Below, one piece after another: positions 1,680 to 20,087 of a stretch of DNA of 20,087 bases. The stretch comes from Bryobacterales bacterium (GTDB lineage Bacteria; Acidobacteriota; Terriglobia; Bryobacterales; Bryobacteraceae): positions 3,280 through 23,366 of the forward strand of contig PLRZ01000281.1 in assembly GCA_003164075.1 (NCBI GenBank), written 5' to 3'. Under the pieces are notes generated by a model. It made no database searches and was not told the origin of the DNA. It worked only from the letters and a program-made list of their open reading frames with translations. The position numbers and the translations under genes are program-made. The number at the start of each line of letters is the position of its first letter. Within the stretch, counting starts at the first letter, position 1.

Positions 1680-2239
1680 CCCTCCTTCTGGCATGCTTCG
1701 CCGCAGCCGCGTTCGGGCAACACCCGCCTGGGAACGCGACGGTCGCGGCCACGAGGTACGTAAGCGACCGGTTCCGGTTTTCAGTGGAAGTTCCGTCAGG
1801 CTGGCGAACCGCAACTGGACCAGACGAAGGACTGCCCCTTTTCACAAATCTTCCATGGTCGCGCATACAGGGCAGGCCTGCCCTGCCGAAGGGTGCCGCG
1901 ACTATCCACATGCTCTCAGAGGAGGATCTTCCTGCCCCTGTCGCGCACTACACGCTGGAGGGCTGGGCGGAATTTGGTCAGCGTGGTTCGGTGCGCGGAA
2001 CGGCAACGAGCGGGCTATTCGAGATGCCGCCTTCGACCGACGTCTCGAAGGCAATTGTCGCGGCGTTTGACGAACAAACGTTCGGCCCGTCGGTGCCTGT
2101 GCAGCACACCGTTGCGGTGTATTGGGAGTTTCGTGGGCATCGCTTCGCCACGTATCTGATCTACGCGGTCGGGGACCCCAAGGGCAAGCGATACGAAGGC
2201 GTTCTGACCGCTGTAATGCGCAGCATTCGGCCCCTCTAA
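1667..2239 (+). CDS. Small exported protein, candidate immunity protein for the RHS tip
   Basis: The 190-residue product starts MRQLTLLLACFAAAAFGQ, a clear Sec signal peptide with likely cleavage near FGQ. Its ATG at 1667 lies inside the end of the RHS gene (stop 1677-1679), so translation is probably coupled. An upstream in-frame ATG at 1559 would add 36 residues that are only the RHS sequence read out of frame, and it would bury the signal peptide, so I reject it. The mature part has a PsbP/DUF1795-like opening, RFRFSVEVPSGW, and ends GVLTAVMRSIRPL, a pattern of small alpha/beta PsbP-like domains. I do not recognise a specific family. Position directly after a toxin tip, coupling and periplasmic targeting together match an immunity protein against a peptidoglycan-acting toxin. 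That role is inferred. Alternatively it is an unrelated secreted PsbP-like protein. Confidence 0.75.
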   Translation: MRQLTLLLACFAAAAFGQHPPGNATVAATRYVSDRFRFSVEVPSGWRTATGPDEGLPLFTNLPWSRIQGRPALPKGAATIHMLSEEDLPAPVAHYTLEGWAEFGQRGSVRGTATSGLFEMPPSTDVSKAIVAAFDEQTFGPSVPVQHTVAVYWEFRGHRFATYLIYAVGDPKGKRYEGVLTAVMRSIRPL

Positions 2240-2241
2240 GG

Positions 2242-4812
2242 GATGCTGTTAACGGCCCTTCAGCGGGCGGACGGCCGATTCCGGAGCCCGGATGGACCTT
2301 GGTGGGATTAGGCCGGCGGCTCGAAGATCGTCGGGAATTGGAATCGGTATGGGTCTGCAAGCAGGATCCCTTTCTCGGTGCGTCGTTCGGCAGCGTGAAG
2401 GTGCTGAGTAGTGTAACGCCCATGGGAATCGGCAATTCCAACCAGTTTCAGTACAATGCCTACGGCGAAATGACGCAGTTCACCACCCCGCTGGGCGCCG
2501 TGCTGGGGTGGCAATACCGGACGTTCGTTTACACCGCCGGCAATTCCTCCCGGCAATACCGGGAAGTGCAGACCCGCACCATGTCGCCGGCCTACAATGG
2601 CAGCACCAACACCTGGAGCCTGTCACTGGCGAACGGTACCGGCAGCCTTCACGGGACGGGAACCGTGCAGGACCTGGGCGCCCAATCGGAGAAGCTCTGG
2701 ACCTTCAACACCAGCACGACCGCCCTGGCCGGTAACACTCCATACCCCGACGCGCTCCTAGGCAGCCTCACCGCGTACGACGAAATCTTCACCGGATCCG
2801 GCGGACCCACTACCCTGCTGCACAAAGACTACACTCCCTGGCAGAGCAGCGGCGGGCAGGCCTACGAGAGCACCATAGTGACCACCCTGAACCCCGGCGC
2901 CGGACCGGCGCAAACCAGAACCGTGCAGACGCTGGACAACCACGGCAACCTCACCCAGTCGCAGATCACCGACTATGCGGGCAGTGCCACTGGGACCCGC
3001 ACCTACAACATGACGTATACGGCGGGCAGCAGCAACTACGCCGCGCGCTACATCTTCAACCGCCTGCTCACCGCGACAGTGACAAACGGTGGCAGCCCCC
3101 TGGCGCTGGTTAACAACACCTACGACTCGGGCTGTTTCACGAACGGGATGACGAACACCAACGCCACCAACAGCCACGACCCCGCCTACAACACCTCCGT
3201 CACCATCCGCGGCAACCTCTCGGGCACCTCCGGGCTGAACGGCTCCGGCTGGTACTGCACCGCGTACGACACCGCGGGGGTCCCGTACTATAGTTGGAAC
3301 GGGACGCAATCGGTGACCATCCAGACCGATTCCACCACCGACTATTCGCTGCCCACCGCCATCCAGCCGAACAGTAACAGCGACATGCAGACCAGCGCGA
3401 CCTACGCCAGTTCGTGGGCCCCCACCAGCCTGACCGGGCCGAACGGCGACCAGGGAACCACCACCTACGATTCCTACGGACGGCCCGCGCAAACCACCAT
3501 CCCCGATGGCGCCGTCACCACCTACACATACGCCTATTACAACTCCGCGACCCAGTCCGGCGCCAACAGCCAGACCGCTACCCTCGACGGCCGCTGGCAG
3601 ACCACTACCCTGGACGGCTTCGGCCGGACTATCCGCGTGCAGACCGGCAACGGCAGCACCACGGTATCCACCGTCGACACCCAGTACGCCCCTTGTGCCT
3701 GCTCGCCGCTGGGCAAGATGTCGGCCGTATCCGAGCCCTATGCGCCGGGAGGCACCCCCGTGTGGACCACCTACACCTACGACGCCTCGGGCCGCACGCT
3801 GACCGTGACCGCCCCCGATGGCAGCATCACGAGGTACGCCTACCAGGGCAACAACACTACCGTGACCGACCCCGCCGGCAAGTGGAAAACCTCCACCGTG
3901 GATGCCTACGGCAACCTGATCGTGGTGACCGAGCCCAACCCGGCGGGCGGCACTTTCGCCACCAACTACACCTACACCTTGGCCAACCAGCTCACCATCG
4001 TCTCCATGACCCGCGGCAACGTCACGCAAACGCGGACCTTCCTCTACGGCGGCTCCGATCTGATAAGCGCCACCAACCCGGAGAACGGCACCGTCACCTA
4101 CACCTACGACGGCTCCCACCACGTCCTCAGCCGCACCGACGCGCTGGGACAGCAGACGCAGTACATCTACGATTCTTACGGCCGCCTCACCGAAGCGCAA
4201 TACTACCCATGCAGCGTGTGCGACGAAACCACTGCGGATCGCGTGACTTACTACTATGACGGAACCCTCCCGGCCAATCTGGGAAAAGGGTACGGTCAGT
4301 GGGGAAACTCGCCCCCTCCGGCGCTTCAAAACACCATCGGGCGGCTGAGCGCGGTGACCTTCAACGGCGGAATAAACGACGAGTTCAGCGACTCCTACTA
4401 CTACCTCTACAGCTACACGCCGCCGGGCCGCGTGGGCGCCCAGATGATGGGGGTGCAGGCGCAGCCGGTTCATCAGTTGAGCCCGGCTACGTGGCTGACC
4501 TTCTCCGCGGCCTATCAGTGGGACAATGAGGGGAGAATGACGTCGCTGCAATATCCCACCGTGCAGATAACGGGGTGGGGAAACTACCCGGGGGTCATGC
4601 CGACGGCCGGATATCAGTACGACGCCAACGGGCGGCTGGGCGCGAACGCAATCTCCTCCAAGGACGTTTCAAGCCAATCCGGGACATGCCCAACCACATC
4701 ACCAAACTCGAAAGTGAACTTCGACCGCGCAATACCATTCACCGACACACTCAACCGAGCGCGAGTCGAGTTCTGTTGCATTAGTACGACCTCGGCATGC
4801 TCATTTAGATAA
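2242..4812 (+). pseudogene. Orphan internal RHS/YD-repeat fragment
   Basis: This long open frame carries many YD repeats (YNAYGEMTQFTTPLG, YDSYGRPAQTTIPDG, YTYDASGRTLTV, YIYDSYGRLTEAQ, YQYDANGRLG). It has no signal peptide or N-terminal domain, no RHS core (no DP.GR) and no tip. The frame is open from 2122, but 2122-2239 overlaps the upstream gene in another frame. Recognisable RHS sequence starts around 2390, and the first in-frame ATG after that is at 2422. RHS similarity stops near 4640. The last ~57 codons are antisense to the MaoC-like gene and have no RHS character. It is best read as a leftover of an RHS gene after recombination, not a working protein. It ends just before the part of an RHS protein with which the upstream gene enters the window. 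The two pieces therefore do not visibly overlap, and whether they are paralogues cannot be judged. Confidence 0.8.
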
Positions 4813-5042
4813 ACGAATCTGCTGAATTGAGCACGTAGTTTGCACAGCGGCGGCAATTCCGGCTGGGCCGCGGCTAGCGCATCCAGCGTCCATAGCAGTA
4901 GATGGATGCCATGCACCACCTGAGACCCAGCCTGTGTCCGCCGCGCCAGCAGCGCATCCACATGCATTGGGTTATGGTCCCCCGACGTCGAGGCAAAACG
5001 CTGCTGATCCGTATCGGTGAACGTCCGCTCTGCCAGCCTCAT
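4614..5042 (-). CDS. MaoC-like hotdog dehydratase, 3' end replaced by RHS DNA
   Basis: The 142-residue frame begins MRLAERTFTDTDQQRF and shows the MaoC/R-hydratase signature SGDHNPMHVDA (D22, H23, N24, P25, H27, D29), then QVVHG at 41-45. This family hydrates or dehydrates acyl-CoA or acyl-ACP thioesters in a hotdog fold. A GGAGGA ribosome site lies 6 nt before the ATG, and the gene follows the MBOAT gene by 24 nt, so it is the last gene of the operon. The final residues (about the last 8, PSRPLASY) come from antisense RHS sequence, and the junction is near 4640. MaoC proteins of similar polymer or lipid clusters are often longer, with a second hotdog or a reductase downstream, so the native C-terminus was probably lost. 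The catalytic Asp/His region is intact, so partial activity is possible. Confidence 0.75.
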   Translation of the reverse strand: MRLAERTFTDTDQQRFASTSGDHNPMHVDALLARRTQAGSQVVHGIHLLLWTLDALAAAQPELPPLCKLRAQFSRFVYLNEHAEVVLMQQNSTRARLSVSVNGIARSKFTFEFGDVVGHVPDWLETSLEEIAFAPSRPLASY

Positions 5043-5066: not shown

Positions 5067-6506
5067 TCAAAATGTTCTGTAGACAATGCTTGGCGCTGGC
5101 TGATTCAGCAGCAGCCTCATCACAACCGCTATCAATCCCAGTCCGCTCGCATAAACCACCCGCGCGTAGCGACTGGTGAGCACCGGCCCCTCTGCTGACC
5201 TGATCGAAAGCAGCGCGCTCCGTAGCACCTCCCACGCCGCCAGCACCACCGTAGCCGAGATCCAGATTGCCAGCCAAACGCCCAGCCACTGCATCACGCT
5301 GATGGAGGAGAATACCTTGTAGATCTCTTCCCATCCCGCCCAGAACCAGAATAGTGTCAGTGAAAACCAACTAAACGTTAGCCCCCGCCCAAATGAGACA
5401 TAGATCGGGTTCACCGCCAATGCCTTGTAGCCTCTGCGCCCCATGACCCTCGTCAACCCCAGCTGCCACAGCCTGTTGATTGAAATCCCGCCACCCTGCA
5501 GCAGACCATAAACCACAAAAGCTGATGTCCGCCCGTGCCACACTCCTACTAGGAAGAAGGTCGCGAATAAGGAGAACACGTCCAACCACGGCTCCACCGA
5601 TGGAGACGGAAGCCGCCGCATCAGGGCTACCAGCAGCGGATTGTAGACATACTTCTTGAACCAGTCCGAAAGCGTAATGTGCCACCGGCTCCAAAACTCC
5701 AGGAACGACGATGCCGACAGCGGCCGGTCAAAGTTCTCGGGCAGGCGCACCCGCATCAGCCTCGCCAGCGCAATTACTATGTCGATGTAGCCGGAGAAAT
5801 TCGAGTACAGAAAGAACGGGTAGACGACGGCCACGCGGAAGGCAGCAATGAGTCTGAGCGACAGAGGAAACGATGGCTGCATCTGCGCAAGTGCGTCTTC
5901 CTGGACGGCATGGAGGAGTACCGACAACACGTTGACCTTGAAGAAGCCGCGAACGATGCGCTCCGCTTGCAGTCCGACGAGGCGTAGCCCCAACGGGATC
6001 GGCTCGCCGGCAAACTGGTCGCGGGCAAACTCGTCATAGCGCTGGATTGGGCCGGAAACCAGCGTCGTGAAATTGAGAGTGTAGAGCAGGTAGGCGCCCA
6101 GACCAATGTGCCGCTTTTCGTCTCCATCTCCCGTTTCAATGAGAACGTGCAGCACGCGAAAGAAGATGTAGGAGAGTCCAAGGGTGAAATAGGGATACGC
6201 GAGAAAGATTCCTTCTGGCAAAAAGGTATATTTCTTCAACCATATATAGGCGAAGATGACAGCCAGAATGCTCCAGACCATGGGCTTGGGCCAGCCGCGC
6301 TCAAGCAGGCTAAGTCCGGCGTAGCCCAAAAGCAAGAAACCGACCAGAGGCAAAAGGGCAACCGGGTTATGCGCGAGCACACCGAGGAACGCAATGCTCG
6401 CCAACATGAGCACGCTTGACCGCCAGATGTGCGAGTTGCCTTTGATGTTTGAGACCAATGCTGCAGCGAGGCCGAAAATCACGAACTGGAAAGACGCAGT
6501 ATCCAT
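5067..6506 (-). CDS. MBOAT-family membrane O-acyltransferase (DltB/AlgI type)
   Basis: The 479-residue polytopic membrane protein has about ten hydrophobic segments. The MBOAT hallmark is clear: FLEFWSRWHITLSDWFKKYV (H276 region), followed by FFLVGVWHGRTSAF with the invariant catalytic-type histidine H324. Members such as DltB, AlgI and PatA move acyl groups across the membrane to exported polymers. Length and motif order match the DltB/AlgI branch. The ATG at 6506 comes 3 nt after the stop of the SGNH-like gene. MBOAT plus SGNH is a known two-part surface O-acylation arrangement, and the ACP two genes upstream could supply the acyl group as DltC does. The substrate is unknown. Confidence 0.93.
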   Translation of the reverse strand: MDTASFQFVIFGLAAALVSNIKGNSHIWRSSVLMLASIAFLGVLAHNPVALLPLVGFLLLGYAGLSLLERGWPKPMVWSILAVIFAYIWLKKYTFLPEGIFLAYPYFTLGLSYIFFRVLHVLIETGDGDEKRHIGLGAYLLYTLNFTTLVSGPIQRYDEFARDQFAGEPIPLGLRLVGLQAERIVRGFFKVNVLSVLLHAVQEDALAQMQPSFPLSLRLIAAFRVAVVYPFFLYSNFSGYIDIVIALARLMRVRLPENFDRPLSASSFLEFWSRWHITLSDWFKKYVYNPLLVALMRRLPSPSVEPWLDVFSLFATFFLVGVWHGRTSAFVVYGLLQGGGISINRLWQLGLTRVMGRRGYKALAVNPIYVSFGRGLTFSWFSLTLFWFWAGWEEIYKVFSSISVMQWLGVWLAIWISATVVLAAWEVLRSALLSIRSAEGPVLTSRYARVVYASGLGLIAVVMRLLLNQPAPSIVYRTF

Positions 6507-6509
6507 TGG

Positions 6510-7727
6510 CTACCTGCCTTCCTCCAATACGGCCCTTTGCTGGGCCGCAACTTTGAGCACAGGCACCGCGCCGTTCGTAAGCTCTCTCGCCAACAGTCCG
6601 GAGATCATGGCGTGCCCGCGAGCATTGGGATGCACATCGAGTGGGAAGAAACCCTGCTCAGTATTGGGTATACTCCGGAAGTACGGCAAGATGTCGACAT
6701 AGATTCCGCCATGGCTCTCAATCATGGAGCGCAGTTCATTGTCCAGCTTGTAGGGGTCGAAGCCAGCCGGCCACACGCCCTTGGAGATCATGGCCACCTG
6801 AGCGCGTTGCGGTAGTAGCGCAGCCACCACAGGTACGCCTGCGGCCTTGGCCTGAGCCTCAATATCCGCGACATCGCTGTCGAGATCCCTTAGGTGGCTT
6901 TGCCATTCCGCGTTCGGTTTGGTTCTCAGGAATTCCGGGCCGTGGATCTTCTGCCCAAAAGGCGCGTCGGGCCTCTCTGCCAGGTAAGAACTGATCAACT
7001 GATTCTGACTCTCGTACAGAAAATGCCGAAACATGAATACGCTATGTGAGGATAACTCCAACTTCAAGCGTCCCAGAATCCGCCTTGCCTTGCGGTATGG
7101 CGACAGTGCCGAGAAGGCTTGGGGAACTTGGGACGCTCCAGGATCAGGCAGCGGTAACAACGGGTTCCAGATGTCGGATGGGTGCAATAGCCAGAGAATC
7201 ATGTCGGGCTTTGCCGTCAAAACCTCATTGAAGTGAAGAGCGACAATGTGCGGGGGGCGCCAAGGCATGCCTTCGTTGTAGAGCTCAACGTTGCGCCCCG
7301 TCCTCCGCGAGAGTTCCGAGGGCAGCAACGCGGCGATGGTTTTTTCGTTTGGCACCCGCATTCCCATCGCATAAGATCCACCTATCATCACGATCCTGTA
7401 GGTGCCCGGCGGCGGCTTAGTCCCGCATTGAAGATCCGTGCGATGGCCACAGCTGTTGAACCGGTACTCCGTTACTTCACCTTCGGGAATCTTTTCCCGG
7501 CACACGCTGTTTGGAATCCCCCGCGCGCCGGTCGAGGGATCGTTGAACACAATACAGTCTTCCCCTGACCCAGGTAAACTTGCAAACATCCGCCGCGCAA
7601 TAACATCTGTAGAAAACACTAGGAGACAGATCGTCGCAAAGCTGAGCGCGGGGAGCAGAATCCAGTCTCGCCGTGGCAGCTTCACTTCTTTAGAGTTCGA
7701 AGGCTCGCTGGCGTTGGGTTGGGTCAT
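6510..7727 (-). CDS. Membrane-anchored SGNH/GDSL-like hydrolase, partner of the MBOAT protein
   Basis: The 405-residue protein has a cytoplasmic N-terminus of about 22 residues and one transmembrane helix (WILLPALSFATICLLVFS, about 22-39). The large exported domain carries SGNH-like blocks: block I RIVMIGGSYAMGM with S118, and block V FPLDVHPNARGH with D364 and H366, giving a plausible Ser-Asp-His triad. Related proteins (DltD, AlgX/AlgJ, PatB) complete acyl transfer to, or remove acyl groups from, extracytoplasmic polymers. Its ATG overlaps the FkbH stop by 4 nt (ATGA), which implies translational coupling. Pairing with the adjacent MBOAT gene supports the surface-acylation role. Block I has GGSYAMG in place of the canonical GDSL spacing, so triad function is inferred and not demonstrated. 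Confidence 0.85.
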   Translation of the reverse strand: MTQPNASEPSNSKEVKLPRRDWILLPALSFATICLLVFSTDVIARRMFASLPGSGEDCIVFNDPSTGARGIPNSVCREKIPEGEVTEYRFNSCGHRTDLQCGTKPPPGTYRIVMIGGSYAMGMRVPNEKTIAALLPSELSRRTGRNVELYNEGMPWRPPHIVALHFNEVLTAKPDMILWLLHPSDIWNPLLPLPDPGASQVPQAFSALSPYRKARRILGRLKLELSSHSVFMFRHFLYESQNQLISSYLAERPDAPFGQKIHGPEFLRTKPNAEWQSHLRDLDSDVADIEAQAKAAGVPVVAALLPQRAQVAMISKGVWPAGFDPYKLDNELRSMIESHGGIYVDILPYFRSIPNTEQGFFPLDVHPNARGHAMISGLLARELTNGAVPVLKVAAQQRAVLEEGR

Positions 7728-9235
7728 ACGAGTGACTCCCCTTTGGCCACAAAGCCCTGCGAAACGACCTTCATCGGAGCATTCGCAGGGTCAGCGTTTT
7801 CAACCAACAGCTCCCAGCGAGTCAGCCCGGGCCCTTCTTCCATCACTTTCTCGAATCCGAGCCTAGCATAGTGGTCGACGACCAGCTTATTGCGGTCCGT
7901 GGGCCGGTAGGTACCGGTCACCTTGTGGACGCCGGCTGCACGGGCATGCTCCAGAATCTCGCGCAGCACCATATGTTCCACCTTGCGTCCCAGCACGCGG
8001 CAGCTCATCAGCCAGGTGTCGATGTCCCATACTCCGGCTTCGCCAGGCCGGCAGATGACCACACTAATCATGCCGTTATCGCCGAAAATATCCGCCAGCC
8101 GGACCTGCAGGGTAAAGACCTCAGGGTCGTTCTCCGCAGCGGTCACTTCCGGATCGGTGTAGCGGCGCGTCGTCAGGTTGTACTGGTTGGATTTGTTGAT
8201 GAGTTGGACAATGCGGGCCCTCCCAGTCGCGTCAAAGGGCTGAAATGTGATCGTCATGTCCAGGGACGCCAAGTATGCATCCACGCTGCCAACTTGCTTT
8301 TGCAGGTTGGCACGCTTGGCATTGTCCTGGTAGAAGCCCGCCCGCTTGAGATCCTCAGTGGCAAAGGCAACGGCCTCAAAGTAGCCGCCCGCGGTGAGGG
8401 TTCTCGCGTAGTAGGCCGCCTCTTCTGGCAACTCCGGCACGGCCACCTGCGGAAGTAGCGTTCGCACAAGCCCCCGCTCCACAGGATTGTCGTCGAGAAA
8501 TACCATGGCGTCCAAGCCAAGCGACAGTTCTTCAGCAATGGCCTGGATGTTAGTGGCTTTGTCATTCCAGTTGGCCTGAAAAACGGCAATGTGGTCCAGC
8601 TTCAGCAACATCTCGGGATGTTGCTCAAAAGGAGCACGCGCCACCTCGTCTGTGTTCTTCGACGATACAGCCAGCACGATTCCTCTTTGGCGCAAGTCCA
8701 GCGCAAGACGCTGCACTGCCAGGTACGCTTCGCCCGTGGCATCGCCCTGTGCGACTTTGATACCCTCCAAGCCGTCGTCTCCGATCACTCCGCCCCAAAC
8801 CGTATTATCGAGGTCGAGAATCAGAACTTTTCGGCTTTTGCCGCGAATGGCTGTAACCGTCCGAGCAACGTGATCGGCGTAAAGCGGAATGAGTTCGTCG
8901 GAGAAGGAGAACTTGGCCATATTCCACAGTTGTGTGTTGTGCCAGTCGGCGAGGCCCACCGTTTCCGCCAGGCCGGCAACATCTAGCAGCACATCGCCCG
9001 ATCCAAGAACATACTCAGCCAGTTCTCGGTTGATGTTGTCGACGAGGCTTCTCAGCGTTCCCGGTAGCGCCCGGTCTAGGCTTCCAAAGAGCGTTTCCAC
9101 AGGCGGAGCGAAAGTTTGAAAAAGGCAAACGGCATTCGAATTAGTCTTGATGCCGTTGCGAAGCACCTGCAGGTAGCCAATGACGCCTTGCACTGTGGCG
9201 GAAGAAGCTTCAGCGTCCGCCAGGGAGAGTTTCAA
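7724..9235 (-). CDS. FkbH-type HAD-IIIC enzyme with C-terminal GNAT-like domain (main part)
   Basis: The 503-residue frame carries the HAD signature LILDLDNTVWGG (D141 and D143), the second-motif region AVSSKNTDE (191-197), K226 in NWNDKATNI, and the acidic motif FLDDNPVER (D248, D249). The C-terminal part (about 330-490: VQLINKSNQYNLTTRRY, then WLMSCRVLGRKVEHMVL) is the acyltransferase-like domain of FkbH proteins. Characterised FkbH enzymes take the glyceryl unit from 1,3-bisphosphoglycerate, dephosphorylate it and load it on an ACP. The start is TTG (9235), because the first ~135 residues of a normal FkbH protein lie in the preceding overlapping frame. The N-terminus KLSLADAEASS continues that family sequence directly, so this is probably one gene broken by a one-base loss. 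It overlaps the downstream SGNH gene by 4 nt. Confidence 0.9.
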   Translation of the reverse strand: MKLSLADAEASSATVQGVIGYLQVLRNGIKTNSNAVCLFQTFAPPVETLFGSLDRALPGTLRSLVDNINRELAEYVLGSGDVLLDVAGLAETVGLADWHNTQLWNMAKFSFSDELIPLYADHVARTVTAIRGKSRKVLILDLDNTVWGGVIGDDGLEGIKVAQGDATGEAYLAVQRLALDLRQRGIVLAVSSKNTDEVARAPFEQHPEMLLKLDHIAVFQANWNDKATNIQAIAEELSLGLDAMVFLDDNPVERGLVRTLLPQVAVPELPEEAAYYARTLTAGGYFEAVAFATEDLKRAGFYQDNAKRANLQKQVGSVDAYLASLDMTITFQPFDATGRARIVQLINKSNQYNLTTRRYTDPEVTAAENDPEVFTLQVRLADIFGDNGMISVVICRPGEAGVWDIDTWLMSCRVLGRKVEHMVLREILEHARAAGVHKVTGTYRPTDRNKLVVDHYARLGFEKVMEEGPGLTRWELLVENADPANAPMKVVSQGFVAKGESLV

Positions 9236-9651
9236 CGCAGCGCTCGATAATCGAGTGCTAGGAGCACTGCATCCGGTTTCGAGCTATTGACCTTGGACCC
9301 CGGAGTTAAGGCCTCTTGTGCTACTTGGTCGTACGAGGGCTGTATAACCTCTAGCGCTATGCCATGCCGCGCAGCACTCGCCACCAGCGCCGGCACGATC
9401 AAATCGATAGTCGAGTTACTGAGCACCGCCAGCCGTAACGGTACGAGCGGTTCCAGCGACCTGCCGTCCGCGCGCGCTTTGCCTATGGTCTTGGCCAGCT
9501 TGGTCAACTGATTCACGTCCAAGGCGTGCAACGCCAGCGACTGCAGTTCGCGCCCGAGTTGACCGGCCGAGTTTTCCAAATCTCTCAGCCTCTCACGAAA
9601 TTCTCGCGGCGGCCGCGGCAGCCATTGTAATTCCGAATAAAGTGAGTTCAT
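9232..9651 (-). CDS. N-terminal part of FkbH-type protein (split or frameshifted)
   Basis: The 139-residue frame begins MNSLYSELQWLPRPPREF, the usual opening of FkbH-like proteins (WLPRPP), and ends PDAVLLALDYRALR followed by TGA. In intact relatives the sequence after the ALDYRAL-type motif runs straight into the helix encoded by the next frame. Here the CTGCGTTGAAAC junction switches frame by -1. Restoring one C (CTGCCGTTG) would give a continuous RALPLKLSLADA. The frame starts with ATG overlapping the ACP stop (ATGA), and its stop overlaps the TTG start of the main part (TTGA). It corresponds to the N-terminal alpha/beta region that precedes the HAD domain. The two chains might still be made by reinitiation and associate. 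A sequencing error is also possible. Confidence 0.8.
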   Translation of the reverse strand: MNSLYSELQWLPRPPREFRERLRDLENSAGQLGRELQSLALHALDVNQLTKLAKTIGKARADGRSLEPLVPLRLAVLSNSTIDLIVPALVASAARHGIALEVIQPSYDQVAQEALTPGSKVNSSKPDAVLLALDYRALR

Positions 9652-9905
9652 TGGAGCTGTTTCTTCAAAGTTCGCGCTTTGATCAGCATCACGAGGTCGC
9701 CCACATTTTCCAGTTTGCCAATTTCCGGAACGGAGAACTTGATTTTGAAAGCTTTCTCGACAGTAAGCATTAAGCGGATGTGGGTGAGGCTATCCCAACC
9801 GTCTACGTCCTTAGCCGACAGTTCAGGAGTCACCGCTATTGAGTCTTCATCAAAAACGTCTTGAAATATCTCCGCCAGCCGAGCGTAAATCTGTGGTTCG
9901 TCCAT
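9648..9905 (-). CDS. Acyl carrier protein, first gene of the acylation operon
   Basis: The 85-residue acidic protein has the phosphopantetheine attachment motif DVDGWDSLTHIRLM with the carrier serine at S39. Helix I is EPQIYARLAEIFQDVF and helix III is VGDLVMLIKARTL. It is a discrete carrier of the kind paired with FkbH enzymes, and it would hold a thioester intermediate in the cytoplasm. A strong ribosome site (GAGGAG) stands 8 nt before the ATG. No same-strand gene lies close upstream, so the promoter of the operon is expected between about 9906 and 10000, although I see no convincing -10/-35 pair. Its stop overlaps the start of the FkbH N-terminal frame by 4 nt. Confidence 0.93.
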   Translation of the reverse strand: MDEPQIYARLAEIFQDVFDEDSIAVTPELSAKDVDGWDSLTHIRLMLTVEKAFKIKFSVPEIGKLENVGDLVMLIKARTLKKQLQ

Positions 9906-11781: not shown

Positions 11782-11907
11782 TCACCCCTCCATGGGCGGG
11801 TGCGAGGCAGGAGTGGCCTCGGGACCGCCCTCCCGGCTGCTGGCGAAGAAGGTACAGCGGCCGGCCTCAACATCGCGCCAGCGGTCAACGCTGGACGATC
11901 TGAACAC
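11782..11907 (-). CDS. Very small hypothetical ORF (41 aa)
   Basis: A GTG at 11907 opens a 41-codon frame (FRSSSVDRWRDVEAGRCTFF, then ending PPMEG) that overlaps the end of the truncated ORF upstream by 23 nt and stops 3 nt before the ATG of the 73-residue ORF. The coupling geometry and its place in a run of same-strand small genes are the only support. No family is recognised, and it could be non-coding. Confidence 0.35.
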   Translation of the reverse strand: MFRSSSVDRWRDVEAGRCTFFASSREGGPEATPASHPPMEG

Positions 11908-12050
11908 CGGCAGCCCGCAACGTGTTCACCAGCGCGCGGGCGTTGTGCTCGGCCCGATAGCGCGCGTAGACATCCGGATCGGCTTCCAGCGCCCGCGCGA
12001 TGGCCTGTTCCTTTGTGGGTGCGGTCGACGCACCGGGGACATACAATCCC
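11885..12050 (-). pseudogene. C-terminal remnant of an unknown (possibly phage) protein
   Basis: A minus-strand frame without a start reads GLYVPGASTAPTKEQAIARA, then LEADPDVYARYRAEHNARAL, and ends VNTLRAAGVQIVQR with TGA at 11885-11887. The composition is that of a real amphipathic C-terminus. EADPDVYARYRAEH resembles the closing helix of some phage structural or scaffold proteins, but I cannot name a family. Sequence further upstream on this strand is antisense to the serine recombinase relic, so the gene was cut at about 12036-12054 by a rearrangement. Confidence 0.5.
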
Positions 12051-12919
12051 GGAAGGCTCGCGCCGCGTGCACAAGATCCTGCGCAACCGCATCTACTGCG
12101 GCGACTTCGATTTCGACGGCACGATGTACCACGGCGCCTACGAGCCGATCGTCACGCGCGAACTGTGGGAGCAGGTGCAGGCGATCCTCGATGGGCGTGG
12201 CTCGAAGAAGACGCGCAAGATGAAAGAACAGTTCGCCTTCAGCGGCCTGATCACCTGCGGCCACTGCGGCTGCGCCATGGTGGGCGAGATCAAGAAGGGC
12301 CGCTACATCTACTACCACTGCACCGGTTTCAAGGGGAAATGCCCGGAGCCGTACACGCGCGAGGAGGTGTTGGAGGAAAAGTTCACCGGCCTGCTGAAGG
12401 GCATCGCGTTCAGCGAGGAGACGCTGGTCTGGGTGCGGCAGGCTCTACGCGAAAGCCACCGCGACGAACGCCAGGTTCCACGACGATGCCATCGCCAAGC
12501 TCCAGCGTGAGCACCGCCGTCTCCAGGACCGCATCGACGCCATGTACGAGGACAAACTGGACGGCCGGATCGCCAACGACTTCTTCGACGCCAAGGCCGC
12601 CGAGATGCGCGCGGCGCAGACGGCCATCATTCGGGACCTGGGGGCGCACCAGACCGCCAACCGCAGCTATATCGAGGAAGGCGTCCAACTCCTTGAACTG
12701 GCGCACAGCGCGCACGCCCTGTTCGAGAGTCAGCCCGCAACGGCAAAACGCAAACTCCTGGATTTTGTACTCTCGAACTGCACCTGGAAGGGCGGCGAAC
12801 TGACCGCGAAATACCGGCAACCCTTTGACGTGTTGGCAGTTGCGGTCGCGTCGGAACAGCAGCGGGTGGGCGCGGGAATGGCGGAAACGGCCAGAAATGA
12901 GATATGGCTCCCCAGGTAG
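12036..12919 (+). pseudogene. Large serine recombinase, C-terminal relic with frameshift
   Basis: The Recombinase domain begins around SRRVHKILRNRIYCGDFDFD and continues through YEPIVTRELWEQVQAIL. The zinc ribbon follows (LITCGHCGCAMV, then YYHCTGFKGKCPEPYTREEV; first Cys codon at 12256), and then a coiled-coil region. At about 12474-12475 an extra G shifts the frame (CGCCAG|GTTCCAC). Skipping it joins RESHRDERQ to FHDDAIAKLQREHRRLQDR, and the frame then runs to TAG at 12917-12919. The resolvase catalytic domain that normally carries the N-terminal active serine is absent, so the protein is dead. Family members integrate or excise phages and islands. The left limit is approximate. The open frame from 11800 to about 12036 has no recombinase character. 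Confidence 0.88.
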
Positions 12920-12982: not shown

Positions 12983-13390
12983 TTACGAAGCTTTCGCCTG
13001 TACCTGACTGGTCAGCGAGTGCACTTTCAGTAGCAGCGAGATTTCGTTAGCCGGAGTTTCCAGAGCCGCCGCGATACTGGGGACCGATTCTCCGCGCCGA
13101 TGCATACGCAGCGCCTGCGCCCGCTTGGTGAGATCGATGCCCGCGCCGATGGGGCGGCCGGGCGGTACCGCTTCCAGGTGGCGCACCGATTCCCGCAGGC
13201 TCTCGATTTCGGCTTCCAGCCCGCGAACCGCCACCAACTCCGACTCGCGAGCGGTGTCCGACTGCGTCGCCCGAAAGCGCGCCCTGGCCAATTCCACTTT
13301 GACGCTGACGAACAGCGCCAGGCTGGTCAGCAGGCACAACGACGCGCCGGAGTAAAAGGTCACGGGATTCAACAGCCATTCCAGGCGCAT
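12983..13390 (-). CDS. DUF2802-like membrane/coiled-coil protein of the flagellar operon
   Basis: The 135-residue protein has one N-terminal membrane helix (about 9-29, FYSGASLCLLTSLALFVSV), a coiled coil with heptad-like spacing (about 45-73, ESELVAVRGLEAEIESLRES) and a C-terminal helix-turn-helix-like module, KRAQALRMHRRGESVPSIAA followed by ALETPANEISLLLKV. This layout matches the DUF2802/YlxL-type proteins that close many flagellar operons. Their precise role is not settled, and a motility-linked function is inferred from context. Its ATG overlaps the fliN stop by one base (TAATG). It is the last gene of the operon before the mobile-element border. I see no clear terminator after it. Confidence 0.7.
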   Translation of the reverse strand: MRLEWLLNPVTFYSGASLCLLTSLALFVSVKVELARARFRATQSDTARESELVAVRGLEAEIESLRESVRHLEAVPPGRPIGAGIDLTKRAQALRMHRRGESVPSIAAALETPANEISLLLKVHSLTSQVQAKAS

Positions 13391-13692
13391 TACTTCTCCT
13401 CTTCCGGCGCCGGAGCCGCTTCCAGACGCTCGCGGCGGCTCTCGATCTGCGAAATCCGCACTCCGTAATTGCCCTGCACCATCACCGCCTCGCCGCGCGC
13501 CACTACCCGGCCGTTGACCAGAACTTCCACCGGCTCTTCGGCGCTCTGGCCGAAATCGATCACCGACCCGCGATTCAGATCGATCACTTCGTCGAGCGTC
13601 ATCTGCGTCCGCCCGAAACGCAGCGTGACCGGCAGTTCGATGTCCAACAGCAGATCCAGGGCCGAGCCCGGCTGACCGATTCCTGCGCTCAT
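13390..13692 (-). CDS. fliN: Flagellar motor switch protein FliN
   Basis: The 100-residue protein is a single SpoA (surface presentation of antigens) domain: LDIELPVTLRFGRTQMTLDE, then IDLNRGSVIDFGQSAEEPVE and LVNGRVVARGEAV, ending GVRISQI. FliN forms the lower C-ring with FliM and FliG and takes part in switching and in docking the export ATPase complex. The length is typical for short FliN proteins. The acidic tail EAAPAPEEEK is unremarkable. Its ATG overlaps the sigma-factor stop by 4 nt (ATGA). FliM and FliG are not in the window. Confidence 0.93.
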   Translation of the reverse strand: MSAGIGQPGSALDLLLDIELPVTLRFGRTQMTLDEVIDLNRGSVIDFGQSAEEPVEVLVNGRVVARGEAVMVQGNYGVRISQIESRRERLEAAPAPEEEK

Positions 13693-14459
13693 ACTCTTCT
13701 CCTTGGCTGATTCAGCCAGACTCGTTCCATGTGGCTGCGCAGCCGCAGGATGGCCTGCGTACGCAATTGGGCGATGCGCGAGAGGTGCATCTTCATCACT
13801 GCGGCGATTTCCCGCAGATTCAATTCTTCGTAGTAATACAGACTCAGCACGGTCCGCTCCGGCTTAGGCATGCGCTCGATCGCCAATGCCATGATTCGCA
13901 CCAGTTCGGCGCGTTCCACCATGTGCGACGGCCAGGCATCTTCGCCCGAGGAGATGAAGTGGAGCAGGTTGCGGCCGGAATTCTCTCCGGGCTCGAACTC
14001 CAGGCGCTCCAGTTCCACGGACTGTACCTCGGCCAGCCACTTCTGATACTCCGCAATGCCGATATTCAATTCGGCGGCGATTTCTTCTTCGGCCGGTTCG
14101 CGTCCATAACGCTGCTTGGCGCGGTGAATGGCGCCTTCGATCAGCTTGGATCGCTTGCGGGTTTCGCGTGGCGCCCAATCCATCTCCCGGAGGCTATCGA
14201 TGATGGCGCCGCGGATGCGCCGCTCGGCGTAGGTGTTGAGCTGCACGCCCATGGTCGGATCGAAATTGTCGATGGCCGCCATCAGCCCGATCACGCCGGT
14301 GGAAATCAGGTCGTCCAGGCTGATGTAGTCCGGCAGGCGGTCGTGAATCCGCCGGGCGATCAGACAAACCTGTGGGAGGTGCTCGAGGACAAGCGCCTCG
14401 CGCTGCGAGTTGATTCCCTCATCGCCAGCGGGACGGTAGTGTTGGAGGCCAGTGGCCAT
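13689..14459 (-). CDS. fliA: FliA/WhiG-type sigma-28 factor
   Basis: The 256-residue protein has sigma-70-family region 2 (SLDDLISTGVIGLMAAIDNF, then NTYAERRIRGAIIDSLREMD at about 48-97), region 3 (LIEGAIHRAKQRYGREPAEE, about 105-130) and region 4 (TVLSLYYYEELNLREIAAVM, then RTQAILRLRSHM at about 203-245). The RGAIIDSLREMDW box is characteristic of FliA/WhiG factors, which direct RNA polymerase to late flagellar and chemotaxis promoters. It lies 12 nt after flhF and overlaps fliN by 4 nt. Coexpression with export genes, as in many non-enteric flagellar operons, places it to switch on later genes elsewhere. Confidence 0.93.
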   Translation of the reverse strand: MATGLQHYRPAGDEGINSQREALVLEHLPQVCLIARRIHDRLPDYISLDDLISTGVIGLMAAIDNFDPTMGVQLNTYAERRIRGAIIDSLREMDWAPRETRKRSKLIEGAIHRAKQRYGREPAEEEIAAELNIGIAEYQKWLAEVQSVELERLEFEPGENSGRNLLHFISSGEDAWPSHMVERAELVRIMALAIERMPKPERTVLSLYYYEELNLREIAAVMKMHLSRIAQLRTQAILRLRSHMERVWLNQPRRRV

Positions 14460-14471
14460 CGGATCTCTCGG

Positions 14472-15545
14472 CTAAGCTACGGCCTGCAACGAATCAGGCA
14501 ATTGGCGTACCAGTGAATCGATCACCCGGTCCTTGGTTGCCTCCTGGATATCTTCGGGTACGGACTGGCCATGGCAGAAGAAAGAAAGCGGCTTTTGCGT
14601 GCGCGCCGCCTCGGTAAAGACGGCAGCGGTGGAACTTGTCTCATCCATGCGCGTAAAGATCAGTTTGCCGGGGTTAAACTCGCCGAAGCGGTCGATGGCG
14701 CTTCGCAGACCGGCGCGGTCCATGGAAGCTGTCAAAACTAAGTGAGTGTCAATATCCTGACGGCGGCTGAGAAACGTCGCGAGGTCGCCGCCGAGTTCCT
14801 GCTGCATGGCGGCGCTGAAGCCCGGAGTGTCGATCAAGACGTAGGTATTGGCGGGCGCGGAGTCGATGGCCTGGGCCAGTGCGGCGGTATTCTCCACGGC
14901 TTGAAACGGTACGCCGAGAATCGCGGCGTAGGTGCGCAACTGCTCGGCGGCGCCAATGCGCAAAGTATCGGCGGAGATCAACCGCACGGCGCGCCCCAGC
15001 TTGAGGCACTGGTGGACGGCGAGCTTGACTAGCGTGGTGGTCTTGCCCGATCCCGGAGGGCCCACCAGCGCGGTAATACGGCCGATTTCGGGGAGTACCT
15101 CGAAGCGGCTGGCGAGCTCGCCGGCCATGGCGGCCGATTCCGTCTCGGAGGCGGCCGAATGGGGCCGGACGATGTCCAGCACGGCGCCCTTCTTGCGCAC
15201 CGCGGGCTCGGTGGAAAACGGCCGTTCCTCCACGTCCGCATCGTCGCCGGAAAGCCCGGCTAGCGCGGACCTGTTGTGGGACAGCATCCGGCGGATTTGG
15301 GACATGCGCTGCTGCAGTTCTTCGGCGCGCGATGCCGGCTTAGGCGCGGGAAGGCTCGCCTCGGGACACACCCCAAAGACCACTTCGAAATCGCCCAGGC
15401 GCCGCGCCTCGGGAGGCGCTTCACGGGAATTCAAGAGCAGTGCGTCTGACCCAAACTCGCGGCGGGCCTGTTCCATGGCTGCGGGGATGGAGCCCGCAAA
15501 GAACGATTTCACGTACAGGTTCGCGGCTTTTTCAGGATTGGGCAT
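14472..15545 (-). CDS. flhF: Flagellar SRP-type GTPase FlhF
   Basis: The 357-residue protein starts with the FlhF N-terminal region (YVKSFFAGSIPAAMEQARRE, then FGSDALLLNSREAP), a variable middle, and an NG GTPase domain. The P-loop is VGPPGSGKTTTLVKLA (162-176). SADTLRIGAAEQLRTYAAIL at 191-210 is the SRP-family G2 segment. G3 is IDTPGF (238-243), and a TRMDET motif serves as G4. FlhF is a membrane-associated GTPase that helps set flagellar number and position. The ATG at 15545 lies 2 nt after the flhA stop. The usual next gene, flhG (a MinD-like ATPase that activates FlhF), is absent here; the sigma factor follows directly. Confidence 0.92.
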   Translation of the reverse strand: MPNPEKAANLYVKSFFAGSIPAAMEQARREFGSDALLLNSREAPPEARRLGDFEVVFGVCPEASLPAPKPASRAEELQQRMSQIRRMLSHNRSALAGLSGDDADVEERPFSTEPAVRKKGAVLDIVRPHSAASETESAAMAGELASRFEVLPEIGRITALVGPPGSGKTTTLVKLAVHQCLKLGRAVRLISADTLRIGAAEQLRTYAAILGVPFQAVENTAALAQAIDSAPANTYVLIDTPGFSAAMQQELGGDLATFLSRRQDIDTHLVLTASMDRAGLRSAIDRFGEFNPGKLIFTRMDETSSTAAVFTEAARTQKPLSFFCHGQSVPEDIQEATKDRVIDSLVRQLPDSLQAVA

Positions 15546-15547
15546 GG

Positions 15548-17620
15548 TTATTGGATAACTCCCTGCGAGATGATTTTGACTTCCATGGGAACCTCGTTAT
15601 GCGAGACGAAAAACACGTTGCGGTTGCTGGGCTCTACCATTTGCCGCAGGAAAAAGCGCGCCCCGGAACTGGCGATCGCCGCCACGGGCGTCTCCGGCGT
15701 GCCGACCTTCGCGTTGATGCGCTGCAGCAGGTCGCGGATGGCCGGCGGCGAGAGCGTCACATGGCTGTTCTGTTCGCCGTGCTGCACGGTGGATTCCACG
15801 GATTGCTCCAGTTGCGAGTCCAACAAATACGCCGGCAGGTCCCCGGCCGAATTCAGGAACGGCTTCACCACCATGCGGCGCAAGGCCTGGCGCACGTATT
15901 CGGTGAGCAGCACGGGATTGCGCGTGGTGACGGCGGCCTCGCCCAGCGCTTCCAGAATGGTGACGGCATCGCGGATGGAAACGCGCTCGCGCAGCAGGTT
16001 CTGCAGCACGCGCTGCACCGTGGAAAGCGGCAGTAGCTTGGGAACCAGGTCTTCCACCACCTTGGGATGGTCGATGGCTACACGGTCGAGGAATTTCTTG
16101 GCGTCCTGCCGGGAGAACAGTTCCTGCGCGTAGCGGCGGACCAGTTCGGACAGGTGCGTGCCCAGCACGCTGACGGCGTCCACTACCGTGTACCCTCCGC
16201 GCCGCGCGGCTTCGGCCTGCTCCGATGGCACCCACCAGCCGGACATGCCGAAGGCCGGTTCCTTAGTCGGTTTGCCGCCCGCGGGCGGGTCCACTTTGCC
16301 CACCGGGATGGCCAGTTCGCATCCCGCTGGCATCTCATAGCGGGCGATTTCGGCGCCCTTCAGCGAGATCGCATATTGGTGCGCTTTGAGCGCCACATTG
16401 TCCACCACGCGTACCGGACCGAGCACGAAGCCCAGGTCGGAAGCGATCTGCCGGCGGATTCCGCCAATGCGTTTGATAAGCGGGGAATCCTGCCCGCCGC
16501 CCACATATTTCACCAGGCCGAGGCCCATCTCGATGGCCAGCGGTTCCACCTTCAGCAGCGCATCGATATTCTCTTTGGCGGCAGCCGGCTTGGCCACGGC
16601 GGCGGTCTTTTCCGCGGCCGCCTGTTTCTTTCGCATGTTCCAGGCGGCGAAGCCCAGGCCGGAGCCGAGCAGCAGGAACGGCACACTGGGCAGCCCTGGA
16701 AAAACCGCCAACACGATCAGCACGCCGCTGGCCAGAAACAGAGGCTGCGGGCTGCCGAACAGTTGCTTGGCGAAATCGGCGCCCATGCGATCGTCGGAGC
16801 TGGCCCGGGTAACGATGAGGCCGCCCGAAATGGAAATCATCAGCGCGGGAATGACGGTCACCAGGCCATCGCCGATGGTCAGGATGGTGTAAGTCTGCAG
16901 GGCCTTGGCCAAGTCCATGCCATGTTGCAGCACGCCAATCAGGAATCCGGCGACGATGTTGATTCCGGTGATCAGGATGGCCGCCACGGCGTCGCGCTGG
17001 GTGAAGCGCGATGCGCCGTCCATGGCGCCGTAGAATTCGGCTTCGCGCCCCAGGTCTTTGCGGCGCTTGCGGGCTTCGGTCTCATCGATCAGGCCCGAGC
17101 TCAGGTCGGAATCGATGGACATCTGTTTGCCGGGGAGGGCGTCGAGAGTGAATCGCGCGGTCACTTCGGAGATGCGCACCGCCCCGTGATTGATGACCAC
17201 ATATTGAATGGCGATCAGGACCAGGAAAATGACCGTGCCGATGATGTAATTGCCGCCCACCACGAAGTTGCCGAAGGCCTGGATGACGTCGCCGGCGGCG
17301 CTGGTGCCGCCGTTGCCGTTCATCAGAATCAGGCGGGTGGCGGAAATACTCAGTGCCAGGCGGAAGAGCGTGAGCAGCAGGAGCGTGGTGGGGAAAACGG
17401 AGAACTCCACCGGCTTGCGGATATACATGGCGACCATCATCACTACCGTCGACATCATGATGTCGGTGACGATGAGGACGTCGAGCATGAAGCCCGGCAG
17501 CGGCGTGATCAGCGCGATCACGATGCCCAGGACGGCGATGGGGACGCCCAGCTCTTTCCAATTTGCGAGCGCCAGCTTCCACGGTGCGGGTGCGGCGATC
17601 GCTTTTGCCTGTGCTGCCAA
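15548..17620 (-). CDS. flhA: Flagellar export gate protein FlhA
   Basis: The 690-residue product has the usual FlhA length. Residues about 25-330 hold the membrane domain with about eight helices and the conserved cytoplasmic FHIPEP loop (VARFTLDALPGKQMSIDSDL, EARKRRKDLGREAEFYGAMD). The rest is the cytoplasmic domain that docks export substrates and chaperones (GGYTVVDAVSVLGTHLSELV near 480, ending with the hydrophobic FLRQMVEPSN region). FlhA is the largest membrane subunit of the flagellar type III gate. The start is TTG at 17620, supported by AAAGGAG six nt upstream and by the family alignment. No ATG gives a better N-terminus. A 188-nt spacer with a large palindromic element separates it from flhB. 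Confidence 0.96.
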   Translation of the reverse strand: MAAQAKAIAAPAPWKLALANWKELGVPIAVLGIVIALITPLPGFMLDVLIVTDIMMSTVVMMVAMYIRKPVEFSVFPTTLLLLTLFRLALSISATRLILMNGNGGTSAAGDVIQAFGNFVVGGNYIIGTVIFLVLIAIQYVVINHGAVRISEVTARFTLDALPGKQMSIDSDLSSGLIDETEARKRRKDLGREAEFYGAMDGASRFTQRDAVAAILITGINIVAGFLIGVLQHGMDLAKALQTYTILTIGDGLVTVIPALMISISGGLIVTRASSDDRMGADFAKQLFGSPQPLFLASGVLIVLAVFPGLPSVPFLLLGSGLGFAAWNMRKKQAAAEKTAAVAKPAAAKENIDALLKVEPLAIEMGLGLVKYVGGGQDSPLIKRIGGIRRQIASDLGFVLGPVRVVDNVALKAHQYAISLKGAEIARYEMPAGCELAIPVGKVDPPAGGKPTKEPAFGMSGWWVPSEQAEAARRGGYTVVDAVSVLGTHLSELVRRYAQELFSRQDAKKFLDRVAIDHPKVVEDLVPKLLPLSTVQRVLQNLLRERVSIRDAVTILEALGEAAVTTRNPVLLTEYVRQALRRMVVKPFLNSAGDLPAYLLDSQLEQSVESTVQHGEQNSHVTLSPPAIRDLLQRINAKVGTPETPVAAIASSGARFFLRQMVEPSNRNVFFVSHNEVPMEVKIISQGVIQ

Positions 17621-17652
17621 CTTACGCTCCTTTAGGTGTCATGCTGAAACTC

Positions 17653-17773
17653 GTGGCGCAGGCACTCCTGCCTGCCGGGTCGAGACTCGTCTCGACCCTT
17701 TTCGAACGCGGTATACACCGTCCCGGAGCGCCGAGATGAGTCTCGGCGCGGCAGACAAAAGTGTCTGCGCCAC
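17653..17773. repeat. Palindromic multi-hairpin repeat element between flhB and flhA
   Basis: Two 46-nt arms (17653-17698 and 17728-17773) are inverted copies about 80% identical (37 of 46), both beginning GTGGCGCAG when read inward. Each arm holds two smaller hairpins. Left: GCAGGCA/TGCCTGC and GGGTCGAGAC/GTCTCGACCC. Right: GCAGACA/TGTCTGC and GCGCCGAGA/TCTCGGCGC. The differences between arms are paired, so each stem stays perfect. The arms are separated by 29 nt. I believe similar sequences are widespread in acidobacterial genomes (recollection, unverified). It may be a REP/MITE-like element. Confidence 0.85.
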
Positions 17774-17808
17774 GTCGCTGCCGTCCGTTTTTTGACATTG
17801 CTAACCTT

Positions 17809-18870: not shown

Positions 18871-18883
18871 GGGGTGTCAGGAT

Positions 18884-18946
18884 CGCTCCCTCACGGTCGC
18901 GGCTCGGTATCCGGCCTTCGTTCCGAGCCGCGACCGTCAGGGAGCG
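18884..18946. repeat. Long hairpin repeat between fliR and flhB
   Basis: Arms 18884-18907 and 18923-18946 are inverted repeats of 24 nt with one mismatch (23 of 24), starting CGCTCCCT, around a 15-nt loop. There is no T run on either side. It resembles a dispersed repeat more than a terminator, and its sequence differs from the flhB-flhA element. Confidence 0.8.
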
Positions 18947-18983
18947 TTAACGTCATCCGTGTCTGAACGACTGTTGCCATACC

Positions 18984-20013: not shown

Positions 20014-20087
20014 GCGTAGAAGCCTTTCATGAGCGAGCCGATCACCAGGTTCCAACCGTCGGCCAGCACGAACAGGAGAATTTTAAA
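20010..20087 (-). CDS. fliP: Flagellar export gate protein FliP, C-terminal end (cut by window edge)
   Basis: Only the last 25 codons are inside the window: FKILLFVLADGWNLVIGSLM followed by KGFYA and TGA at 20010-20012. PFKLLLFVL.DGW.L...SL..SF is the conserved C-terminus of FliP, which forms the pentameric core of the export gate. The stop overlaps the fliQ start. The rest of the gene, and probably fliO or fliM/fliN-type neighbours, lies to the right. Confidence 0.93.
   Translation of the reverse strand, partial: FKILLFVLADGWNLVIGSLMKGFYA

Follow-up and report, generated by a model that had tools for sequence, protein, structure and literature searches.

A 20,087-nt stretch of contig PLRZ01000281.1 from a Bryobacterales bacterium (Acidobacteriota), hereafter the window, carries on its minus strand, head to tail, genes for an acyl carrier protein (ACP), FkbH, an SGNH-fold protein, an MBOAT and a short MaoC. 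We consider it probable that these genes represent a carrier-fed MBOAT/SGNH operon for envelope acylation in which the carrier is loaded by FkbH. An earlier note, made from the letters of the window alone, had described a five-gene operon of this content with genes that overlap or nearly touch. The genes, their order and their tight packing held up, adjoining pairs of open reading frames (ORFs) overlapping by 4 bases or lying at most 24 bases apart; the FkbH gene turned out, however, to be frameshifted into two ORFs and the MaoC gene to be the remnant of a longer fusion. The ORFs of the operon are as follows:

9648..9905, minus strand: acyl carrier protein, 85 amino acids, phosphopantetheine site DGWDSLTH (PF00550, E = 1.3e-4)
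9232..9651, minus strand: FkbH first piece, 139 amino acids, N-terminal domain (PF21211, E = 2.3e-5, slightly below the cut-off)
7724..9235, minus strand: FkbH second piece, 503 amino acids, HAD domain (DLDNTVWGG) and C-terminal part (TIGR01686, E = 5e-88)
6510..7727, minus strand: SGNH-fold acyltransferase candidate, 405 amino acids, predicted to be membrane-anchored (PF13472, E = 1.5e-7, and structure model)
5067..6506, minus strand: MBOAT, 479 amino acids, WHITLS and GVWHG, C-terminal IVYRTF (PF03062, E = 2e-14)
4614..5042, minus strand: truncated MaoC dehydratase, GDHNPMHVD retained (PF01575, E = 4e-12)

Operon Proteins and Proposed Route

The six operon proteins and four neighbors were scanned against the Pfam and NCBIfam models; the ketosynthase (KS), adenylation (A) domain, phosphoglycerate kinase, SGNH, ACP and MaoC motifs behind our labels are those we take to be characteristic. 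The operon has a dedicated carrier, the 85-residue PF00550 protein, for which the best NCBIfam ACP model gives an E value of 1e-10, under the cut-offs of these models. With 295 bits for TIGR01686 at a cut-off of 147, the loading enzyme belongs to the FkbH family; no AMP-binding match was found among the proteins of the operon, and FkbH occupies the role that DltA has in Dlt. The MBOAT scores 54 bits with PF03062 (cut-off 27), retains both conserved His motifs and has DltB as its nearest solved structures by sequence (E = 2e-31). Its C-terminal end keeps the Tyr and the last Phe of the acyl-shuttle hexapeptide FXYXXF, with Ile replacing the first Phe. The SGNH protein scores 32.6 bits with PF13472, just below the cut-off of 32.9, and its structure model (pLDDT 84) shows an SGNH fold with an N-terminal helix at residues 19–47. 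Ser118 and His366 are invariant in 38 of 38 aligned rows, and with both residues kept we regard the protein, on the strength of the model, as a membrane-anchored candidate acyltransferase adjoining the MBOAT.

FkbH enzymes load glyceryl from 1,3-bisphosphoglycerate (PMC8949500, PMC13122637; here and below, the cited papers are represented by excerpts). By this precedent, FkbH would take a three-carbon unit from glycolysis and form glyceryl-ACP. The MBOAT would carry the acyl group across the membrane from ACP and place it on the Tyr in its C-terminal hexapeptide; from there it would move to the Ser of the anchored SGNH protein, which would esterify an extracytoplasmic polymer, most likely an exopolysaccharide. 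Gene content and order, the catalytic and shuttle motifs, the SGNH fold and the presence of a MaoC-SDR fusion near FkbH in relatives come from computation, while the substrate, direction of transfer and acceptor are inferred. In the versions of the operon that end in a MaoC-SDR fusion, glyceryl-ACP would be dehydrated and the resulting keto form reduced to lactyl-ACP. This step is modeled on the logic of the bryostatin loading module, and a literature check gave no confirmation of it. The donor unit is probably glyceryl and may be lactyl where the fusion is present, if the fusion acts on the ACP-bound unit. More tentatively, and with confidence falling a little short of even, we propose a distinct class of envelope acylation in which an FkbH-charged carrier taps 1,3-bisphosphoglycerate, the shuttle Tyr is either fused or DltX-like, and polymers are glycerylated or, with MaoC-SDR, lactylated.

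Conservation of the Gene Neighborhood

Scanning the genome collection with an SGNH alignment (A1) returned 12 loci, all Acidobacteriota by their titles. The complete ACP-FkbH-SGNH-MBOAT set was present at five of them (L003, L005, L006, L011 and L012) and also in further genomes (Terriglobia), and four (L001, L002, L004 and L010) held operon parts interrupted by contig ends. Of the others, L008 contained the end of FkbH, two SGNH genes and the start of an MBOAT with other ORFs in between, L007 an SGNH gene without partners, and L009 SGNH and MBOAT genes with no FkbH in the stretch read. Since the order ACP-FkbH-SGNH-MBOAT is found again in relatives, it is not due to chance. The conserved five-gene neighborhood for which the earlier note had proposed a search was thus recovered for these four genes; a lone MaoC did not recur, and a MaoC-SDR fusion was carried by five of the 17 window-class operons with a readable downstream side (L002, L003, L105, L116 and L125). 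The window-type SGNH family was found in 3 of 297 genomes of a phylum sample, all three already known from the order. At L008 (1838-6803) and L009 (9599-12291), window-family SGNH genes also adjoin ORFs of about 380 amino acids that by eye resemble acyltransferase-3, which suggests an exchange of partners.

Within the order, FkbH exceeded the cut-off in 103 of 249 genomes. Neighborhoods were counted for the best 100 by score of the 133 over-cut-off FkbH matches, using profiles built from the window's own proteins and recognizing a setting like that of a nonribosomal peptide synthetase (NRPS) by A-domain motif and ORF length; some of the stretches end at contig ends, L077 and L092 overlap on one contig, and L099, L123 and L135 repeat L006, L005 and L011, respectively. 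An ACP lay within 1.5 kb of FkbH in 75 neighborhoods, an MBOAT within 5 kb in 45 and both in 44, while the window SGNH family was seen in 15 and the MaoC-SDR fusion in 9; 28 had an ACP only and 18 none of the scored partners. PF03062 produced 68 matches in 40 of these genomes, equal to 64 genes after merging four second pieces, and simple arithmetic from these numbers gives a chance proximity of MBOAT to FkbH of about 0.4%, vs. the 45 of 100 observed. An invariable placement inside polyketide or lipid clusters with synthases, which the earlier note had named as the outcome that would overturn its claim, was not what we saw: six of the 100 neighborhoods were NRPS-like, among them none of the 15 with the window SGNH family.

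Related gene sets were found outside the Acidobacteriota. On a plasmid of Rhodobacteraceae SC52, the order is ACP-FkbH-MBOAT, followed by a 358-amino-acid protein; on a plasmid of Tistrella mobilis, MBOAT, a 340-amino-acid partner, ACP and FkbH lie on mixed strands with a methyltransferase between; and on pSymB of Sinorhizobium meliloti, MBOAT, a 409-amino-acid partner, ACP and FkbH stand together. By eye, the partner proteins of these plasmids have a hydrophobic stretch near the N-terminus as well as a motif resembling G-x-S or G-x-S-S, and none has a Pfam match at an E value of 0.01. In Paroceanicella, ACP, FkbH and a methyltransferase occur with no MBOAT in the stretch read. On the plasmid of Paroceanicella profunda (L161, 9690-17724), this set lies a few genes from mprF and a gene of the AcvB/VirJ family, a possible sign that lipids are acylated with methylated glyceryl.

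Acyl-Shuttle Peptide and MBOAT Phylogeny

PatA acetylates the Tyr in its own C-terminal FXYXXF, and a peptide acetylated in this way can serve PatB as donor; in Dlt, it is the microprotein DltX that ends in the shuttle peptide (PMC12148441). A Tyr hexapeptide forms the C-terminal end of 48 of 56 MBOATs, the window's included. The window and 20 window-class rows (17 distinct) end in [ILV]VY[KR]xF; the ending is F[LIV]YxxF in 26 of the remaining 27 and FIYAAY in the last. No C-terminal hexapeptide is present in eight MBOATs of 424–429 amino acids, and at seven of their loci an adjoining ORF has hydrophobic last 44 residues that end in SVNLVYQAF. The candidate microproteins are as follows:

L064, L067, L071, L073, L076, L080, L085: DltX-like microprotein ending in LVYQAF, the last 44 residues of the ORF
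L062, 10416-10604: DltX-like ORF of 62 amino acids ending in GSVYQGF, between the ACP and partner genes, seen by eye

The L062 microprotein escaped the pattern search by which the other seven were found. The seven come from closely related genomes and are not independent; summed over pairs, their ORFs differ by 314 synonymous and 244 nonsynonymous codon differences. The same pattern, applied to 774 small ORFs near 44 fused-end MBOATs, found no microprotein with a shuttle ending, and the window operon has no nearby short minus-strand ORF with a DltX-like end. Judged by these endings, the predicted shuttle is either fused to the MBOAT or separate in the FkbH-linked set, which includes putative DltX-like proteins outside the Gram-positives.

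We inferred an MBOAT tree of 66 rows, with long branches and unsettled bootstrap values and without a named PatA or AlgI. A split with support of 100/99 places the window class on one side together with DltB, the microprotein class, the Tistrella row and one non-FkbH row (Leptolinea), and the remaining FkbH-linked MBOATs on the other side together with the remaining non-FkbH plasmid MBOATs. By the approximately unbiased (AU) test, a grouping of the window and microprotein classes without DltB was not rejected (p-AU 0.31), while a single clade of all FkbH-linked MBOATs was (p-AU 0.0005). The latter rejection implies that MBOATs became linked to FkbH and ACP on more than one occasion, or that these partners were exchanged. 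In the 10 non-FkbH MBOAT stretches, the profile check detected no FkbH. In one of the loci read, from Nonomuraea gerenzanensis (L172, 2635-4449), an MBOAT ending in FLYYRY is directly followed by an ACP with no FkbH in the 6.8 kb read; this may be a further MBOAT supplied by a carrier, one that some other enzyme loads.

These patterns bear on the possibility of ordinary O-acetylation, in which the MBOAT and SGNH proteins would draw on acetyl-CoA as PatA/PatB do, with FkbH and ACP belonging to a distinct small-molecule pathway that happens to be encoded in the same operon. The C-terminal hexapeptide has been described for MBOAT/SGNH pairs using acyl-CoA (PMC12148441), and related MBOATs with such an end do occur without FkbH in the stretches read. 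However, FkbH, ACP and MBOAT are together in 44 of the 100 neighborhoods and on three alphaproteobacterial plasmids, and the failure of the FkbH-linked MBOATs to form one clade means that the pairing recurs on different MBOAT branches. We therefore regard two unconnected functions as improbable and favor an MBOAT fed by the FkbH-loaded carrier.

Genomic Surroundings and the Acceptor

The Pfam scan placed the operon of L011 among GT2, GT4 and Wzy genes and that of L006 after a sugar transferase, Wzx and GT8. Our sample of flanks comprised 101 ORFs from 15 loci, including the FkbH-ACP pair of L097 and the near-identical L126 and L129. The commonest families were glycosyltransferases (8) and Wzy_C (5), counts to be read without a random-locus baseline; using five local profiles, a glycosyltransferase, Wzy or Wzx gene was detected at 8 of the 15 flanks, at L105 weakly. 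The presence of glycan genes in the flanks favors an exopolysaccharide as the acceptor. A phosphoglycerate kinase gene was considered as a clue to the substrate and not used, being 1 of the 101 flank genes and located about 3 kb from the MBOAT-less FkbH-ACP pair of L097.

The same surroundings can be set against a rival reading in which the operon modifies a secreted small molecule or lipid and not a polymer of the cell surface. It is chiefly through polyketide and NRPS pathways that FkbH is known; in the clusters for suomilide and varlaxin, glycerate is loaded by an FkbH domain within the NRPS and a separate MBOAT is the proposed modifier of the product (PMC10143770, PMC13122637), and the ACP-FkbH-methyltransferase set near mprF on one plasmid fits this direction as well. 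No synthase was seen beside the window-class operons, however: no ORF with KS or A-domain motifs was labeled in the window-class loci read, and none was found among the window proteins scanned. Moreover, Wzy, Wzx or glycosyltransferase genes flank several operons, and the N-terminal helix in the model of the SGNH partner would anchor the protein in the membrane. We rate small-molecule or lipid tailoring as unlikely, marginally more so than separate acetylation, and retain the acylation of an envelope polymer as the favored function.

Two further gene groups were noted by eye in the window. Genes resembling FlhF, FliA, FlhA, FlhB, FliR and FliQ adjoin the operon on the minus strand (13390-20055); no flagellar family is among the 25 commonest of the 97 Pfam families in the 101 flanking ORFs of relatives. 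On the plus strand (11800-12919), overlapping ORFs resemble fragments of a serine recombinase that has a zinc ribbon.

MaoC-SDR Fusion and the State of the Window Copy

The last gene of the relatives encodes a MaoC-SDR fusion, with 476 and 497 amino acids in L002 and L003 (PF01575, PF00106 and PF08659), and the motifs GDxNPxHxD, GGSRGLGE and YxMxK are invariant across 11 aligned fusions. The window MaoC aligns with about the first 130–140 residues of the fusion. The similarity ends at about position 4638, and comparison with the full-length fusions found no trace of the SDR half in the window beyond that point. On the plus strand, the YD-repeat reading of a Rhs-like ORF turns into antisense MaoC at 4639. 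With the Rhs/YD and MaoC-SDR genes cut at one point, the site is a recombination junction or an assembly chimera. The plus strand of the window holds two Rhs/YD-repeat pieces (99-1679 and 2122-4812): one has a Rhs-core-like stretch and a variable C-terminus, and the other breaks off near 4638, at the edge of the MaoC remnant. The pieces may reflect Rhs genes arrayed in tandem, a junction formed by recombination or a chimeric assembly.

A profile built from the 11 fusions, applied with E values up to 1e-30 and at most six candidates scored per genome, matched 16 times in 15 of the 249 genomes, and all 15 genomes were FkbH-positive. Eleven of the 16 matches lay within 5 kb of an FkbH match. The six further genomes that hold the matches outside the profile were likewise FkbH-positive.

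The FkbH reading frame of the window is not intact, its two ORFs of 139 and 503 amino acids spanning 7724-9651. They are collinear with residues 1–138 and 140–639 of the relative in L003, which is a single ORF. P0123, a 642-amino-acid database protein on five contigs, is identical to the first piece at 138 of 138 positions and, in residues 140–642, 99.6% identical to the second piece; another (P0125) is nearly as close, and the split form (P0121) stands for seven contigs in the protein database. Judging from these identities, the population of the window, or one very close to it, contains intact FkbH copies. Given such near-identical single-ORF copies, the split in the window is a frameshift, real or technical; a natural gene split is ruled out, the relatives and P0123 being single ORFs. 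Split FkbH genes were also seen elsewhere: in the window-class operon of L105 (8198-10120), FkbH is divided into 192 and 442 amino acids at a place other than in the window, and on pSymB of S. meliloti it appears as two overlapping ORFs in the record of strain 1021 (L159) and as a single ORF in that of 2011 (L196).

With a frameshift in FkbH and a truncated MaoC-SDR gene, the operon as sequenced in this contig is probably nonworking. One may go further and suppose that the operon is decaying and yields no product in this organism, a view compatible with envelope acylation in the relatives. The two lesions, the truncation being placed at the Rhs/YD boundary, and the seven contigs of the split form speak for decay. 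Against it, the near-identical intact FkbH on five contigs means that the frameshift may be an error of sequence or assembly, and the other genes of the operon are open and retain their motifs. Decay of this kind seems to us rather unlikely, though clearly less so than either of the functional alternatives above.

Several observations weigh against an FkbH-loaded envelope-acylation operon, beginning with the broken state of the window copy itself. The first position of the shuttle peptide is Ile, Leu or Val in the window class, not Phe. In a Foldseek comparison, the SGNH model is closer to ordinary GDSL esterases than to DltD, with DltD 6o93 at rank 45 (E = 9e-4). The DltB model gives the window MBOAT 158 bits at a cut-off of 375; eight FkbH-linked MBOATs score 158–186, two non-FkbH MBOATs 172 and 177 and a true DltB 552, and since the model scores FkbH-linked and other MBOATs alike, the type of donor cannot be read from the score. 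A specific kinship of the MBOAT with DltB was accordingly dropped as evidence, as the model does not discriminate. Seven of the 15 flanks are without any of the glycan genes sought with the five local profiles. Twelve of the 17 window-class operons with a readable downstream side lack the MaoC-SDR fusion (L001, L005, L006, L009, L011, L012, L104, L122, L126, L129, L130 and L137). Its association with FkbH is partly built in: 9 of the 11 FkbH-near matches are the profile's own rows, found through their proximity to FkbH, and of the seven nonprofile matches, two lie by FkbH, two by MBOAT and three by neither (flank of about 1.5 kb). Finally, the proposed substrate and acceptor are drawn from sequence, not biochemistry.

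Comparison with Known Systems

The earlier note knew of no described system of this composition, and likewise none turned up in the open-access papers searched. In the excerpts available, including those of PMC4552970, PMC3783018, PMC12148441, PMC7099621 and PMC7600079, we found no FkbH tied to an MBOAT/SGNH pair, and the papers that had FkbH and MBOAT together concerned NRPS clusters (PMC10143770, PMC13122637). Gellan glyceryl was set aside as a parallel, the open-access literature match concerning an NRPS. MBOAT/SGNH pathways other than Dlt are said to lack a carrier protein and a DltX-like microprotein (PMC12148441, in excerpt), and the carrier protein and microproteins described here run against that generalization. 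If our interpretation is true, MBOAT/SGNH machines would attach not just acetyl and D-alanyl groups but also glyceryl or lactyl units supplied by central metabolism, and the FkbH genes carried by 103 of the 249 genomes of the order gain testable functions. The fused and split forms of the shuttle provide a natural experiment on how the machinery is assembled.

The closest likeness is to Dlt (DltX-A-B-C-D), which shares an activating enzyme, a carrier, an MBOAT and a membrane-anchored SGNH protein with the window operon, and whose DltX has a counterpart in the microproteins of window relatives. The differences are that the window has FkbH and not the adenylating DltA, that its shuttle peptide is fused to the MBOAT, that the MBOAT reaches 158 of the 375 bits of the DltB cut-off, and that the operon occurs in Acidobacteriota and Alphaproteobacteria. 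The interpretation in the earlier note is supported in part: the Dlt-like layout with FkbH in the DltA role stands and is conserved in Terriglobia and seen on alphaproteobacterial plasmids, while FkbH is not intact in this contig and MaoC is the remnant of a fusion. The match to the DltB model is not special. The window system is Dlt-like in its proposed workings and is not a Dlt operon, having no DltA, an MBOAT below the DltB cut-off and no DltX in the window.

With PatA/PatB, compared by description and not with PatA or AlgI sequences, the window operon shares an MBOAT with a conserved His and a C-terminal Tyr hexapeptide and an SGNH partner. PatA/PatB use acyl-CoA and no carrier protein, as far as described in the excerpt of PMC12148441, whereas the window operon has ACP and FkbH. 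The polyketide and NRPS systems are alike in having FkbH beside a carrier protein and glyceryl from 1,3-bisphosphoglycerate. In the suomilide type, however, FkbH is a domain of the NRPS and the MBOAT is proposed to acylate the product hexose, acting on the finished product or another part of it (PMC10143770, PMC13122637), while the window FkbH is a free-standing enzyme accompanied by SGNH and MBOAT proteins, with no synthase. Campylobacter jejuni cj1302 resembles the window FkbH as an FkbH-domain gene in a surface-glycan locus, that of the flagellar glycans, whose sugars carry dimethylglyceric acid, a glyceric acid derivative, on pseudaminic acid (PMC7099621). It differs in that the excerpt of PMC7099621 neither links cj1302 to the dimethylglyceric acid nor mentions an MBOAT/SGNH pair, the pair through which the window operon would deliver its acyl unit.

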